Assembly: GCF_002142155.1 (NCBI RefSeq)
Contig: NZ_NASD01000020.1
Coordinates: 1 to 46,703 of the forward strand
Length of the DNA: 46,703 nt
Reading direction: 5' to 3'
DNA from: Gilliamella apis
GTDB lineage: Bacteria; Pseudomonadota; Gammaproteobacteria; Enterobacterales; Orbaceae
Part shown: piece after piece, positions 1-27,208 of the stretch
Position numbering within the stretch: position 1 is the stretch's first letter
How the letters are laid out: each line of letters opens with the position of its first letter
The notes under the pieces: model-generated
What the model was told of the DNA's origin: nothing
The model's database searches: none
Seen by the model: only the letters and a program-made list of their open reading frames with translations
Program-made: the position numbers and the translations under genes

Positions 1-604
1 TTATGTAACTGATCGTTGAAATCTTTTTATTTTTCTAATATGGAATACGTCAGAATGAAAAAATAAAAAACATAATTTCAATAGTAAGTATTTTGTTTTC
101 TTATGTTTTTTTATCTATTTAATGTTTGAGAGTCGAGGCGGATTATTAAATCCATACAATTATGGAGAGATTAATCATAAAATAATTTGGTAGATCTATT
201 TTACGGATTCAATCTTGTTATCGTATAAATTAAAGCATTTTTAATAACAGATAGCTTGAAAACAATAAATCAAATCGAAAAAAGGTTATTAGCCTTATTA
301 TTAGAGTAAAAACTTTATGTTTGTACAATCTAAAAAGGCACTACTAAACCACTAAATTTTAGGTATAATAACTTAGTCATATAGAAATAACTGACTTTTT
401 GTATTTATTTTTGTAAATAGTGGCAAATTGCTATTCATATTAATTGATTATTAATAGTTATCGTAAAGCCACCATTTAACACATGTAATATTTCATAAAT
501 TATTAACGATTTAACTCGCTTAATTATCTCAATTGTTCACAAAATATATCATTACAAGTCTATATTCTATTTATAAAAATTTTAACCAATTTGAGAGTAA
601 AACT
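1..604. other. Gene-free AT-rich stretch
   Basis: I see no credible protein-coding gene or RNA gene here. There are isolated AT-rich words, including a TATAAT at about 363 and a weak 5-bp hairpin followed by a T run near 376-400. They do not make a convincing promoter-terminator pair. The last bases before 605 contain a GAGAG ribosome-binding site for the SMR gene. Confidence 0.5.
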
Positions 605-3351: not shown

Positions 3352-4449
3352 ATGACAGAATCTTTTTCTAACGACAAATATAACCAGCAGTTACAAAATA
3401 AAATAACCAATTTAAAAATATTATTATCTGATTTTTCATTACCCGATTTACAGGTTTTCTCTTCACCAATTAGTCACTATCGTATCCGAGCTGAATTTAG
3501 AATTTGGCACAACGGTGAGGAGCTTTATCATATTATGTATGATAAAAAAACTAAAAAAAGAGTAAGAATTGACAGTTTCCCAATTGCATCACAATTAATT
3601 AATCGTGCCATGCAAACAATTTTACCGTTACTTCAATATAATGATAAGTTGCGCCTTCAACTTTTTCAGATTGATTATTTTTCCACGTTGAGCGGCCAGT
3701 TATTAATAACACTTTTATATCATAAAAAATTAGATGACCAATGGATAATAGAAGCTGAGCGTTTAAAACAACAATTAGCTGAGCAGGGTATTATTGCCAA
3801 TTTGGTAGGTCGAGCTAGTAATCAAAAAATTGCTGTAAATGTTGATTATGTCGATGAGGTTTTACCCATATTTGATAAGAACTTTAGTTATCGACAAGTA
3901 GAAAATAGTTTTACTCAACCTAATGCTGCTATCAACATTAAAATGTTGGAGTGGGCAATATCGGTTACTAAAGATTCTAAAGGTGATCTTCTAGAATTTT
4001 ATTGTGGTAACGGTAATTTTTCGATTGCCTTGGCACAAAATTTTCGTAAGGTGTTAGCGACCGAGATTGCCAAAGCATCGGTCTATTCAGCGCAACATAA
4101 TATCAAAATCAATAATATTGATAACTTAATTATTGCCAGATTATCGGCCGAAGAATTTACCAGTGCAATTAAAAAAGAACGACAATTTAATCGATTGCAG
4201 GGCATTAATTTAGATGATTATCAATGTCAAACCGTATTAGTCGATCCACCAAGAGCAGGATTAGATGATAATACGCTTGAGATTATCCAAAGTTATCAAA
4301 GGATTATCTATATTTCTTGTAATCCGAATACGTTAAAAAATAATTTAGAACAACTTACCAAAACGCATCATATTGAACATTTTGCCATGTTCGATCAATT
4401 TCCTTATACCGATCATATTGAAACTGGTATTGTTCTTCGTAAAAACTAA
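3352..4449 (+). CDS. trmA: tRNA (uracil-54-C5)-methyltransferase TrmA
   Basis: Makes m5U54 (ribothymidine) in the T loop of nearly all tRNAs using S-adenosylmethionine. The product is 365 residues (E. coli 366) and aligns along its whole length with the TrmA family. The N-terminal half has [13 protein letters not shown]. The [14 protein letters not shown] motif and the SAM site [12 protein letters not shown] follow. The VDPPRAGLD motif comes next, and the catalytic nucleophile is Cys323 in YISCNP. The general-base region [10 protein letters not shown] is near the C-terminus. It is transcribed away from srmB, and neither neighbour suggests an operon. Confidence 0.96.
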
Positions 4450-4553
4450 TATCAAACATATTCAATTACGGTTAAATTTGCTAAAATAAAATTAGTTTTA
4501 TAGTGAATTAGCCGTAATCCATAAATAAATTTACGTCAGTAAGTATTAAAGGC

Positions 4554-4655
4554 AAAAAAAAACCCTAGATCAACTAGGGCTGCATTAAATTGCAAGGAAT
4601 GGATGAAAGGAAATAAAACAATGAAACAATACTGTCTAGCCTCATGAATCATTGT
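4554..4655 (-). ncRNA. Candidate small RNA of about 100 nt, divergent from the CusR-type operon
   Basis: The minus strand has a textbook intrinsic terminator: a 6-bp stem (CCCTAG 4563-4568 with CTAGGG 4574-4579), then nine T. No gene on that strand ends here; trmA ends on the plus strand at 4449. About 100 bases upstream on the same strand is an extended -10, TGTTATAGT (core 4662-4667), with a weak TTAATC -35 at 4685-4690. This puts the start at about 4655. The predicted transcript begins with a possible stem-loop (CAATGA pairing with TCATTG). An unpaired C/U-rich stretch follows (TTTATTTCCTTTC at roughly 4604-4616 and ATTCCTT at 4594-4600), then the terminator. That layout is typical of Hfq-dependent small RNAs. 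I do not recognise the RNA; the identity and the existence of the transcript are inferences. Confidence 0.55.
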
Positions 4656-4661
4656 GGCGAT

Positions 4662-4690
4662 ACTATAACAAATCAAAACCGACTGATTAA
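4662..4690 (-). promoter_or_regulatory. Extended -10 promoter of the candidate small RNA
   Basis: On the minus strand TGTTATAGT is an extended -10, with the core hexamer at 4662-4667. TTAATC at 4685-4690 with a 17-base spacer is a poor -35. The promoter would lean on the extended -10 or an activator. Confidence 0.45.
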
Positions 4691-4700
4691 TGACGTTGAG

Positions 4701-4735
4701 GTTACAAAATAGTCATTAAATTGTCATGATGTCAT
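4701..4735. promoter_or_regulatory. Repeat block, possible response-regulator binding site
   Basis: GTCAT occurs three times in the same direction, at 4712, 4723 and 4731; the first two are 11 bases apart. GTTACAAAATAGTCAT at 4701-4716 resembles the palindromic copper box known for CusR/PcoR/CopR regulators (ATTACAAAATTGTAAT, 12 of 16 by eye). The block sits between the minus-strand small RNA promoter and the CusR-type gene. A possible plus-strand -35 (TTGTCA 4721-4726) lies inside it. Autoregulation by the neighbouring OmpR-family regulator is an inference. Confidence 0.35.
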
Positions 4736-4809: not shown

Positions 4810-5496
4810 ATGAAATTGTTAGTTGTTGAAGATGAACAAAAAACAGGTGAATATCTACGCCAAGGATTAGTTGAGTCAGGATTTATTGTTGATCTCACAG
4901 ATAATGGCTTAGATGGCTATCATCGCGCAATGACTGAAGATTATGATTTAATTATTCTAGATGTAATGCTCCCTGATATTGTTGGTTGGAAAATAGTTCA
5001 GTCTTTACGTGAAGCAGGTAAAGACACGCAAATTATTCTTTTAACTGCAATGGGAAGTGTTGAAGATAAAGTTAAAGGGCTCAATTTAGGCGCTGATGAT
5101 TATTTAGTTAAACCATTTTCTTTTGCCGAACTATTAGCAAGAGTTAAGTCATTATTAAGACGAAATGTACCACAAGTTAATAATTATCAATTAAGTATCG
5201 CAGATCTTGTTATGGACTTACCTAAACGAACCGTAACCAGAGGTGATAAAAGAATTGATTTAACCAATAAAGAGTTTTTATTACTGGAATATTTTTTACG
5301 TTATCCTGGTGAAGTGCTCCCTAGATCACTCATCGCTTCCCAAGTATGGGATATGAATTTTGACAGTGATACCAATGTTATTGATGTAGCAATTAGGCGT
5401 TTGCGTAACAAGATCGATGCTGATTTTGAACCAAAATTGATTCATACGGTCCGAGGAATGGGATATAAATTAGATGTATTGGATGAAGAAAACTAA
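4810..5496 (+). CDS. cusR: OmpR-family response regulator, CusR/PcoR type
   Basis: A two-component response regulator of 228 residues. The receiver domain covers about 1-115, with acidic residues Glu7-Asp8, phosphorylation site Asp51 in [10 protein letters not shown], and the conserved lysine in VKPFSF. A winged-helix DNA-binding domain covers about 125-225. Long stretches match the heavy-metal regulator subgroup (CusR, PcoR, CopR), including [20 protein letters not shown]. The start has AAGGAAT nine bases upstream. The histidine kinase gene overlaps its 3' end by 23 bases, so the two are translationally coupled. No cusCFBA or other copper/silver efflux genes are in the window. The true signal and targets are therefore unknown, and the symbol reflects family only. 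Confidence 0.85.
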
Positions 5497-6886
5497 CATC
5501 ATATCATTTCGTATACCACTTATTGTATGCCTACTGACATGTGGGCTACTTTATTGTTTTAGCTATCTTATTGAACATACCTTTGAAAAAATTTCGATTC
5601 AACAAAATGTCACAGAACTGAATTCTGTCATCACCTCAATCGAGCGTGAGCTTACCTATTATTCGCCCGATGAAAACCGTGATGAATTTTTTCAAAATCT
5701 TTTACTTATTTTAACCGGTCATCATCACTTATTTGTTTATATTATTGATGATTCAGGAAAAATTGTCTATCGTACCCGAGGGCCAAATCTATCTATTGCT
5801 TTATCTCAAGAAGATTTTGATCGTTTAATTACTGAAAATAGTACTGCAATTTGGAATATTGATAAATCGTCTTATCGTATCGGAGCCTCTAGAGTACTGT
5901 TGGAGGAAGGTCGCCAATATACGACTATAGTTGCAGTAGCGCGTGATTTACAACTTGAATTTATTAAGCGATTGAGAAATGGTTTAGGTTTACTTATTGT
6001 TATTTCTTGTGTTTTGGCTTTAATAGGGTCATTAATTTCAATATATTTTACGCAAAAACCGATCAATCGTTTAATTAAAAAGATTGAAGGCATTAATATG
6101 AAAAGTTTAAATTATCGTATTTCAACCAAATCAGTACCGGTGAAATATGTTAGTTTGGTTAAAGCTTTTAATAATATGCTTCATCGAATGGAAGATGTTT
6201 TTGATCGGCAACGCAATTTTACTGCTGATATCGCTCATGAAATGCGCACGCCAATTACTAATTTAACCACACAAACGCAAATAGTATTGAATAATGCGAG
6301 GTCAACCGATGAATACCGAGAAATTTTATATTCTAATTTAGAAGAGTATGAAAAAATGTCTCAGATGATTTCTGATATGTTGTTTTTGGCTCAAGCAGAT
6401 AATCATCAATTGGTTCCTAACCTCATCGATATTGATTTGCACTCGATGATCAGTTTGATGTGTGAATATTTTGAACCTCTAGCGGATGAAAAAAATATTA
6501 CTTTTGATATCGAAGGTAGTTGTTCTCATATTGAAGGCGATAAAATGATGTTAGGACGAGCGATAAGTAATATCTTATCCAATGCCATTCGTTATACCCC
6601 TACAAATAAGACAATCAAAATTAGCTTGAGTCAAGTGAATCAAAAACGAATTCAAATTATTATTGCAAACCCAGGTAAAAAGATTGAAAGTCGCCATTTA
6701 CCACATCTTTTTGATCGTTTCTATCGAGTCGATGAATCTCGGCATCGTAATGGTAAAGATAGCTCAGGAACAGGGATTGGTTTAGCAATCGTTAAATCTA
6801 TTATCGACACGCATAAAGGTCATATTCATGTCGAATCTGATGATTTATCAACTCGATTTATTATCAAACTTCCTACCGTTATTTAA
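5474..6886 (+). CDS. cusS: Heavy-metal-type sensor histidine kinase, CusS-like
   Basis: The membrane sensor kinase partner of the regulator upstream, 470 residues. A membrane helix at about 13-30 and a second at about 172-195 flank a periplasmic sensing domain of about 140 residues. A HAMP linker, the phosphoacceptor His255 in DIAHEMRTP, the N box [11 protein letters not shown] and the G box [11 protein letters not shown] follow. The IIIANPG sequence in place of the usual G1-box aspartate motif is also typical of CusS/PcoS kinases. An alternative start is the ATG at 5483. The periplasmic domain has several histidines (a HHH cluster near residue 86) that could bind metal, but the ligand is not shown by sequence. 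The last 8 bases overlap the convergent yaeP gene. Confidence 0.85.
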
Positions 6887-27131: not shown

Positions 27132-27208
27132 GTCTCCTTAGCTCAGCTGGATAGAGCAACGGCCTTCTAAGCCGTAGGTCACAGGTTCGAATCCTGTAGG
27201 GGACGCCA
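27132..27208 (+). tRNA. tRNA-Arg, anticodon UCU
   Basis: A full cloverleaf of 77 bases with the 3' CCA encoded. The acceptor stem GTCTCCT pairs with AGGGGAC (one G-U pair). The D arm has AGCTCAGCTGGATAGAGC. The anticodon stem ACGGC/GCCGT holds the loop CTTCTAA, so the anticodon is TCT at 27166-27168. The T arm has CAGGTTCGAATCCTG. It reads AGA/AGG. A decayed integrase lies 17 bases downstream pointing back to it, so its 3' end is the likely attachment site of the element that follows. Confidence 0.96.

Follow-up and report, generated by a model that had tools for sequence, protein, structure and literature searches.

A predicted small RNA divergent from a CusRS-type two-component operon in the family Orbaceae

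What stands opposite a CusRS-type two-component operon where the efflux operon that occupies this place in E. coli is not found? The question arises from a 46,703-nucleotide stretch of the Gilliamella apis genome (contig NZ_NASD01000020.1; hereafter, the window), for which a first-pass annotation made from the letters alone had proposed a small RNA reading away from the regulator gene, with the layout of an Hfq-type RNA and in the position of cusCFBA. Our analysis, as far as sequence comparison reaches, supports this reading. The features of the locus are listed in Table 1.

Table 1. Predicted and annotated features of the locus, in window coordinates.
Feature	Position	Strand	Basis
Small RNA gene, ~105 nt	4554..4658, 5' end predicted 4655-4658	(-)	fold, family-wide matches, covariance model
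Intrinsic terminator with nine T	4554..4581	(-)	stem scan, alignment, stem comparison
Unpaired C/U-rich core UUUAUUUCCUUUCAUCCAUUCCU, presumed seed	4595..4617	(-)	fold and near-invariance
5' hairpin ACAATGA...TCATTGT	4618..4655	(-)	predicted fold; sequence differs between genera
Extended -10 TGTTATAGT of the small RNA	4670-4662	(-)	sequence scan, promoter pattern across copies
Direct repeats, 11-bp period, GTAAC-N6-GTCAT-N6-GT	4682..4705	(-)	presumed response-regulator box upstream of the RNA -10
GTCAT-N6-GTCAT and a third GTCAT, regulator side	4712..4735	(+)	presumed autoregulatory box
trmA, conserved neighbour on the other side of the RNA	3352..4449	(+)	profile match and synteny
CusR-like response regulator gene	4810..5496	(+)	TIGR01387 above cut-off
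CusS-like sensor kinase gene	5474..6886	(+)	TIGR01386 above cut-off

The minus strand carries the perfect terminator that the first-pass annotation had described. Its stem, CCCTAG-TTGAT-CTAGGG, is followed by nine T at 4562-4554 and is the longest among three terminator-like sites in a 3-kb scan, where shuffled sequences gave 1.2 sites. As had also been claimed, no minus-strand gene ends there: the sole overlapping minus-strand open reading frame of at least 40 aa is a 46-aa frame with a TTG start (4536-4676), which crosses the terminator and runs on. The clean extended -10 expected about 100 bases upstream on the same strand is present. A simple scan did not place it in a two-hexamer promoter, and because promoter-like sites in the scanned region are no commoner than chance (17 found, 15.9 expected), the promoter is weak evidence when judged from this single sequence. 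Between the two elements lies a predicted transcript of about 105 nt (about 4658 to 4554). Its predicted fold (z = -2.46) opens with a 5' hairpin, leaves the next 23 nt unpaired and closes with a small hairpin followed by the terminator, in keeping with the earlier description of about 100 nt with a C/U-rich unpaired centre.

At the sequence level the candidate has what an Hfq-type small RNA has: its own promoter and a Rho-independent terminator with a long U run. Predicted folds and conservation together place a conserved single-stranded seed between its hairpins. Hfq itself (TIGR02383) was found in 43 of 44 Orbaceae genomes, and the one miss is an 81% complete assembly. A search of the whole window with Rfam 15 returned no small RNA family at the gathering score, the sole match being a tRNA at 27132; a laxer Rfam search at this locus and two related loci gave nothing near a family threshold.

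We then compared the locus across the family. A query covering 4545-4700 of the window matched all 44 Orbaceae genomes, which represent five genera (Gilliamella, Frischella, Orbus, Schmidhempelia and Zophobihabitans). One locus, in genome G025, is split across two contig ends and was excluded from the alignment and from all counts of 44 copies given below; these copies come from 43 genomes, with two in tandem contributed by G035. The order trmA-RNA-regulator-kinase was kept in each of the 41 genomes where all four were tested; two further genomes were read for the RNA and regulator alone, and G025 stood outside the test. A covariance search, which the first-pass annotation had proposed, was run with a model (R1) that places the RNA at 4554-4633 in the window. 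It matched 33 of 394 Enterobacterales genomes, all 33 of them Orbaceae, and no Orbaceae appeared among the misses listed by name (341 misses were not named). In the GTDB collection, 30 records contained the core pattern; 29 are from Orbaceae, and the thirtieth, in a Christensenella bin, lies inside a long opposite-strand open frame and looks like a chance match. The E. coli genomes searched for the RNA gave no match. Judged by these matches, the predicted RNA is specific to the family Orbaceae and is a hallmark of it.

Fifteen of the 43 loci were compared with the window over the 35 nt around the core, and 10 of these relatives showed 100% identity to it. Among the 10 are both genomes of Frischella, both of Schmidhempelia and two of the four of Orbus; identity in these genomes is down to 65-69% for trmA and 75-79% for the regulator gene. 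The Orbus genome G064 gave the lowest value over these 35 nt, 85%. The terminator, by comparison of 43 of the 44 copies, exists as 11 stem sequences, all paired when G-U pairs are counted; these are the stems as cut by a script, and some differ by one base or in cut length alone. L064, left out by the automatic terminator picker, folds with a 5-bp stem. In a 22-row alignment, two-sided changes were seen in 4 of 11 consensus pairs. The RNAalifold covariation term was -0.04, close to zero. Five rows have the outermost stem pair broken or gapped, and two Schmidhempelia rows are misaligned there.

Folding of nine further copies gave a 5' hairpin in eight of the minimum-energy folds (L066 was without one), and the hairpin predicted for the first copy of L069 was unstable. 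Shuffle z values ranged from -1.83 to -5.48, and the 5' hairpin, unpaired core and terminator occurred together in eight of the nine. In the other genera the 5' hairpin sequences differ and the same core is left unpaired. Because of its conservation in 44 of 44 genomes, its near-invariant core, terminators that change and stay paired, and the fixed promoter spacing described below, the candidate is raised above chance, and the support for the predicted RNA now goes far beyond what one sequence by itself could give.

Some genomes hold additional copies or possible relatives of the RNA. In Zophobihabitans entericus (L069) two copies lie in tandem at G035:C1:1572910-1572988 and 1573181-1573253, each with its own promoter box and the same core, and their 5' parts differ. 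At a different locus of Orbaceae bacterium ESL0721 (G004; L080, about 501-519, minus strand), 19 nt of the core (TTTTATTTCCTTTCATCCA) recur exactly and directly precede another terminator shortly past an apparent gene end; this may be a sibling RNA. A similar C/U-rich stretch followed by a terminator-like hairpin in Gilliamella G007 (L083, 501-572, minus strand) is possibly a distant sibling or a chance resemblance.

Across copies, the promoter has a fixed geometry. An offset of exactly 24 nt separates the start of GTCAY-N6-GT from the downstream extended -10 in 40 of 44 copies, a variant box stands at the same offset in three more (L056, L061 and L062), and in the last (L070) a GTCAT is visible by eye at 24 nt with the second GT missing. 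Despite this fixed offset, the distance from box to core ranges between 51 and 95 nt. A strict promoter pattern of the Gilliamella type was found at 35 places in the 44 genomes, 34 of them at the RNA locus (the reversed control gave 6), and it misses the RNA in 10 of the 44. The block of three GTCAT repeats noted earlier between the RNA and the regulator gene was found on the plus strand, with repeats starting at 4712, 4723 and 4731. In Orbus, Schmidhempelia and Zophobihabitans both sets of boxes meet in palindromes resembling ATGACAA-NN-TTGTCAT. These palindromes (AAATGACAATTTTGTCATTT in L067) appear similar to the E. coli copper box, and the Gilliamella boxes are degenerate relative to those of Orbus and Schmidhempelia. 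The simplest reading of this arrangement is that the regulator would drive both the RNA and itself, as CusR does with cusC and itself. GTCAT-N6-GTCAT occurs at six sites in the genome of the window, four of them inside or overlapping genes. An intergenic occurrence (L207, about 1501-1516) lies 326 nt upstream of an OprD-like porin gene, which may be a second target of the regulator.

The two-component system belongs to the heavy-metal subfamily. The regulator scored 329.1 bits against the TIGR01387 cut-off of 279.2, and the kinase 398.0 bits against the TIGR01386 cut-off of 292.55. Both fell below the models for CusR proper (365.7 bits, NF007346 cut-off 420) and CusS proper (406.2 bits, NF007345 cut-off 423), which leaves the signal uncertain: it may be copper, silver or an oxidant. 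Comparison of the kinase with solved structures gave matches spanning the kinase core and no usable match to the sensor domain. The response regulator protein (window 4810-5496) is unusually conserved across genera, with about 87-91% identity at L061-L069; at the same loci the kinase proteins are about 50-58% and TrmA about 61-65% identical.

The efflux pump was sought with the CusA-type model TIGR00914, which found none above its cut-off in 42 of 44 Orbaceae genomes; in the genome of the window there was a weaker RND match, also below the cut-off. The two genomes with CusA are both Orbus, and in these the gene lies on a different contig from the RNA (G062) or about 1.2 Mb away from it (G064). 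The divergent cusCFBA operon that belongs to the CusRS-cusCFBA system was not found here. Given these 42 genomes, the predicted RNA therefore stands where E. coli has cusCFBA, and together with the conserved gene order this upholds the earlier proposal that it takes the place of that operon.

The locus is like E. coli CusR-CusS in its regulator subfamily (TIGR01387/TIGR01386), its divergent layout and its shared boxes. PMC10920338 describes activation of both divergent operons by E. coli CusR through an intergenic box, and according to PMC9302797 induction by E. coli CusSR in the presence of copper extends to the methionine sulfoxide reductase MsrPQ. Unlike the case of cusCFBA, the divergent transcript in Orbaceae is a predicted small RNA. 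What is unusual is that a CusRS-type system here has this RNA, in place of the efflux operon, as its conserved divergent partner.

Enterobacterial small RNAs driven by two-component systems include OmrA/OmrB and MgrR. The Orbaceae RNA shares with these an Hfq-type layout and boxes fit for an OmpR-type regulator, and its tandem copies in Zophobihabitans are arranged as in OmrA/OmrB. Unlike them it adjoins its presumed regulator, and searches of Rfam, E. coli and with the covariance model revealed no sequence relation. FnrS, an E. coli small RNA that represses metE among other genes, is similar in having a C/U-rich seed and metE as a candidate target; unlike FnrS, the Orbaceae RNA is not recognised by Rfam models and has a promoter with GTCAT boxes. 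The lowest E-value among sub-threshold Rfam matches was to Spot 42 (RF00021), for one Zophobihabitans copy (24.1 bits, E 0.34). We rejected membership in that family, the score being far under the gathering score of 80 and the window copy having no match. Among the papers on Gilliamella and Orbaceae in the library searched, titles and abstract openings yielded no RNA regulator, and the small RNA is apparently undescribed. Its kind is known, a small RNA under a two-component system; the Orbaceae-specific RNA is new.

Taking the evidence as a whole, the best explanation is an Orbaceae-specific trans-acting RNA that is driven by the CusR-like regulator and pairs with ribosome-binding regions, to which we assign a probability of about 0.8. 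The phosphorylated regulator would bind the GTCAT direct repeats in the shared intergenic region and activate transcription in both directions, towards its own operon and towards the small RNA, the latter in the position of the cusCFBA operon that CusR activates in E. coli. The resulting transcript of about 105 nt would act in trans, probably with the help of Hfq. Its single-stranded core would pair with the ribosome-binding regions of mRNAs, so that translation is blocked or the mRNA destabilised. The core holds two CCUU motifs, which are complementary to ribosome-binding sites of the AAGGAA type.

One such site lies next to the RNA itself. The first-pass annotation had pointed out that ATTCCTT in the RNA is complementary to the AAGGAAT ribosome-binding site of the regulator and had suggested feedback. 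The complementarity is real, but feedback is unsupported in the genome of the window, where the duplex reaches -13.2 kcal/mol against a median of -12.15 kcal/mol for 368 gene starts, and we set this candidate aside there. Over 43 loci the duplex had a median of -16.1 and a lowest value of -21.5 kcal/mol, and in nine of them it fell within the best tenth of the sample (-18.4 or lower). In those relatives the regulator may be subject to feedback. The kinase start gave low duplex energies in several species; the stretch tested there was longer (100 vs 57 nt), and the pairing sequence, GGAATGGG, lies in a conserved coding motif. A search for an 18-nt complement with up to two mismatches found scattered places besides the RNA itself, and the 20 that we examined were mostly intragenic or unrepeated between genomes. 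A pattern allowing wobble pairs and one mismatch found little beyond the RNA itself in the 44 genomes.

In Gilliamella the proposed targets are metE and metF, which serve the last steps of methionine synthesis; the predicted pairing of the RNA with their leaders joins AAUGGAUG with the matching CAUCCAUU. In two Gilliamella genomes the RNA query also matched weakly at the start of metE, where 20 of 21 nt are complementary. metE was picked before the target scan, and the neighbouring metF was noticed afterwards. The scan covered 368 gene starts, predicted with a crude gene caller in 387 kb of the 2.52-Mb genome of the window, and by duplex energy metF ranked third and metE fourth. None of 150 shuffled cores placed both genes in the top four, and one equalled their rank sum; taken singly, a rank as good was obtained for metE in 5 and for metF in 8 of the 150 shuffles. 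Among 25 genes with orthologues in three Gilliamella genomes, metE and metF took ranks 1 and 2, with weakness in individual genomes (metE at percentile 0.349 in one of the three, metF at 0.32 in another).

At 30 Gilliamella loci, duplex energies ranged from -13.9 to -27.9 kcal/mol for metE and from -16.0 to -27.0 kcal/mol for metF. The motif AATGGAT precedes the metF start in 29 of the 30 (L272-L301), with variable flanking columns, and was found at 4 of the 368 sampled gene starts in the genome of the window. In those 29 loci it occupies the expected Shine-Dalgarno position of metF. No AATGGAT was found ahead of metF in G004 or G011, two genomes of the same GTDB genus that lie outside the 30 loci, or at the Frischella and Orbus metF starts examined. 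Outside the main Gilliamella group, metE duplexes had energies of -10.0 to -18.6 in nine of ten genomes and -22.2 in one Schmidhempelia; metF duplexes had -7.1 to -18.7 in 9 of 11 and -20.9 and -21.4 in the other two, in a comparison where the metF start of L302 is doubtful. Schmidhempelia G067 showed good pairing for both genes. Neither gene stood out in the target comparison for Frischella, and Zophobihabitans, which has two RNA copies, gave no metE match. We regard metE and metF as good candidates and, by these predicted duplexes, as the best targets proposed so far, mainly in Gilliamella. According to PMC4360819, MetE is known to undergo oxidative thiol modification, which results in a shortage of methionine. 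This is a sensible context for the pairing and not a proof of it.

Because metE and metF pair for the most part weakly with the RNA beyond the main Gilliamella group, they cannot explain why the core is invariant across the family; judging from that conservation, other targets or binding of a protein by the core must be needed. This leads to an alternative that is compatible with most of our best explanation rather than exclusive of it, namely that the small RNA is real and does its main work elsewhere, through other family-wide targets or through protein binding, for example as an Hfq sponge. It would account for an invariant core in genera with mostly poor metE and metF pairing, and long near-perfect complements are few in the genomes, which implies that targets must pair over short stretches. 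The standing of metE and metF, first and second of the 25 comparable genes and both in the top four of 368, tells against it, and U-rich Hfq binding alone is not expected to fix nearly every base. We give this alternative a little less than an even chance. The more specific proposal, that a copper or oxidant system lacking its efflux pump has been rewired so that the small RNA is its dedicated family-wide output and controls metE and metF in Gilliamella, is tentative, and we would wager somewhat against it in this complete form.

The readings that dispense with a functional RNA are all far less probable. The terminator and -10 could be remnants of a lost cusCFBA leader, lying as they do where cusC starts in E. 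coli, in a family where CusA is mostly below its cut-off; such a remnant would hardly keep 35 nt fully identical while trmA drops to 65-69%. Nor would one expect of it a terminator stem that stays paired as its sequence changes, or a tandem duplication that includes the promoter box, as in L069, and we consider a remnant very improbable. The same low probability applies to the view that an antisense or read-through transcript stops at the terminator, whose sole role is to insulate trmA, the conserved stretch being a DNA element. The RNA does point at the 3' end of trmA from the opposite strand, but no larger minus-strand gene lies just upstream, a promoter of fixed geometry directly precedes the RNA, and conservation tracks the predicted RNA structure. 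Slighter still is the chance that the 46-aa frame is the product: it is open through the core, but it also runs through the terminator, is broken in relatives by 8-nt insertions (L070, L072) and smaller indels, and overlaps a core that is invariant at all three codon positions.

A trans-acting small RNA under the CusR-like regulator is the reading we retain, and through it the system would probably adjust other genes once its sensor is on. With it, a regulatory RNA family would be described for a major group of bee gut symbionts. The two-component system, with a pump apparently exchanged for an RNA as its divergent output, would offer a clear case for the study of regulon rewiring, and the prediction is sharp, with two promoters, one seed and two candidate targets. 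Should the more specific proposal of a rewired system be true, one envelope signal would be turned directly into post-transcriptional control, in Gilliamella that of methionine synthesis, by way of metE and metF, and the oxidation or shortage of their enzymes matters under copper or hypochlorite stress.
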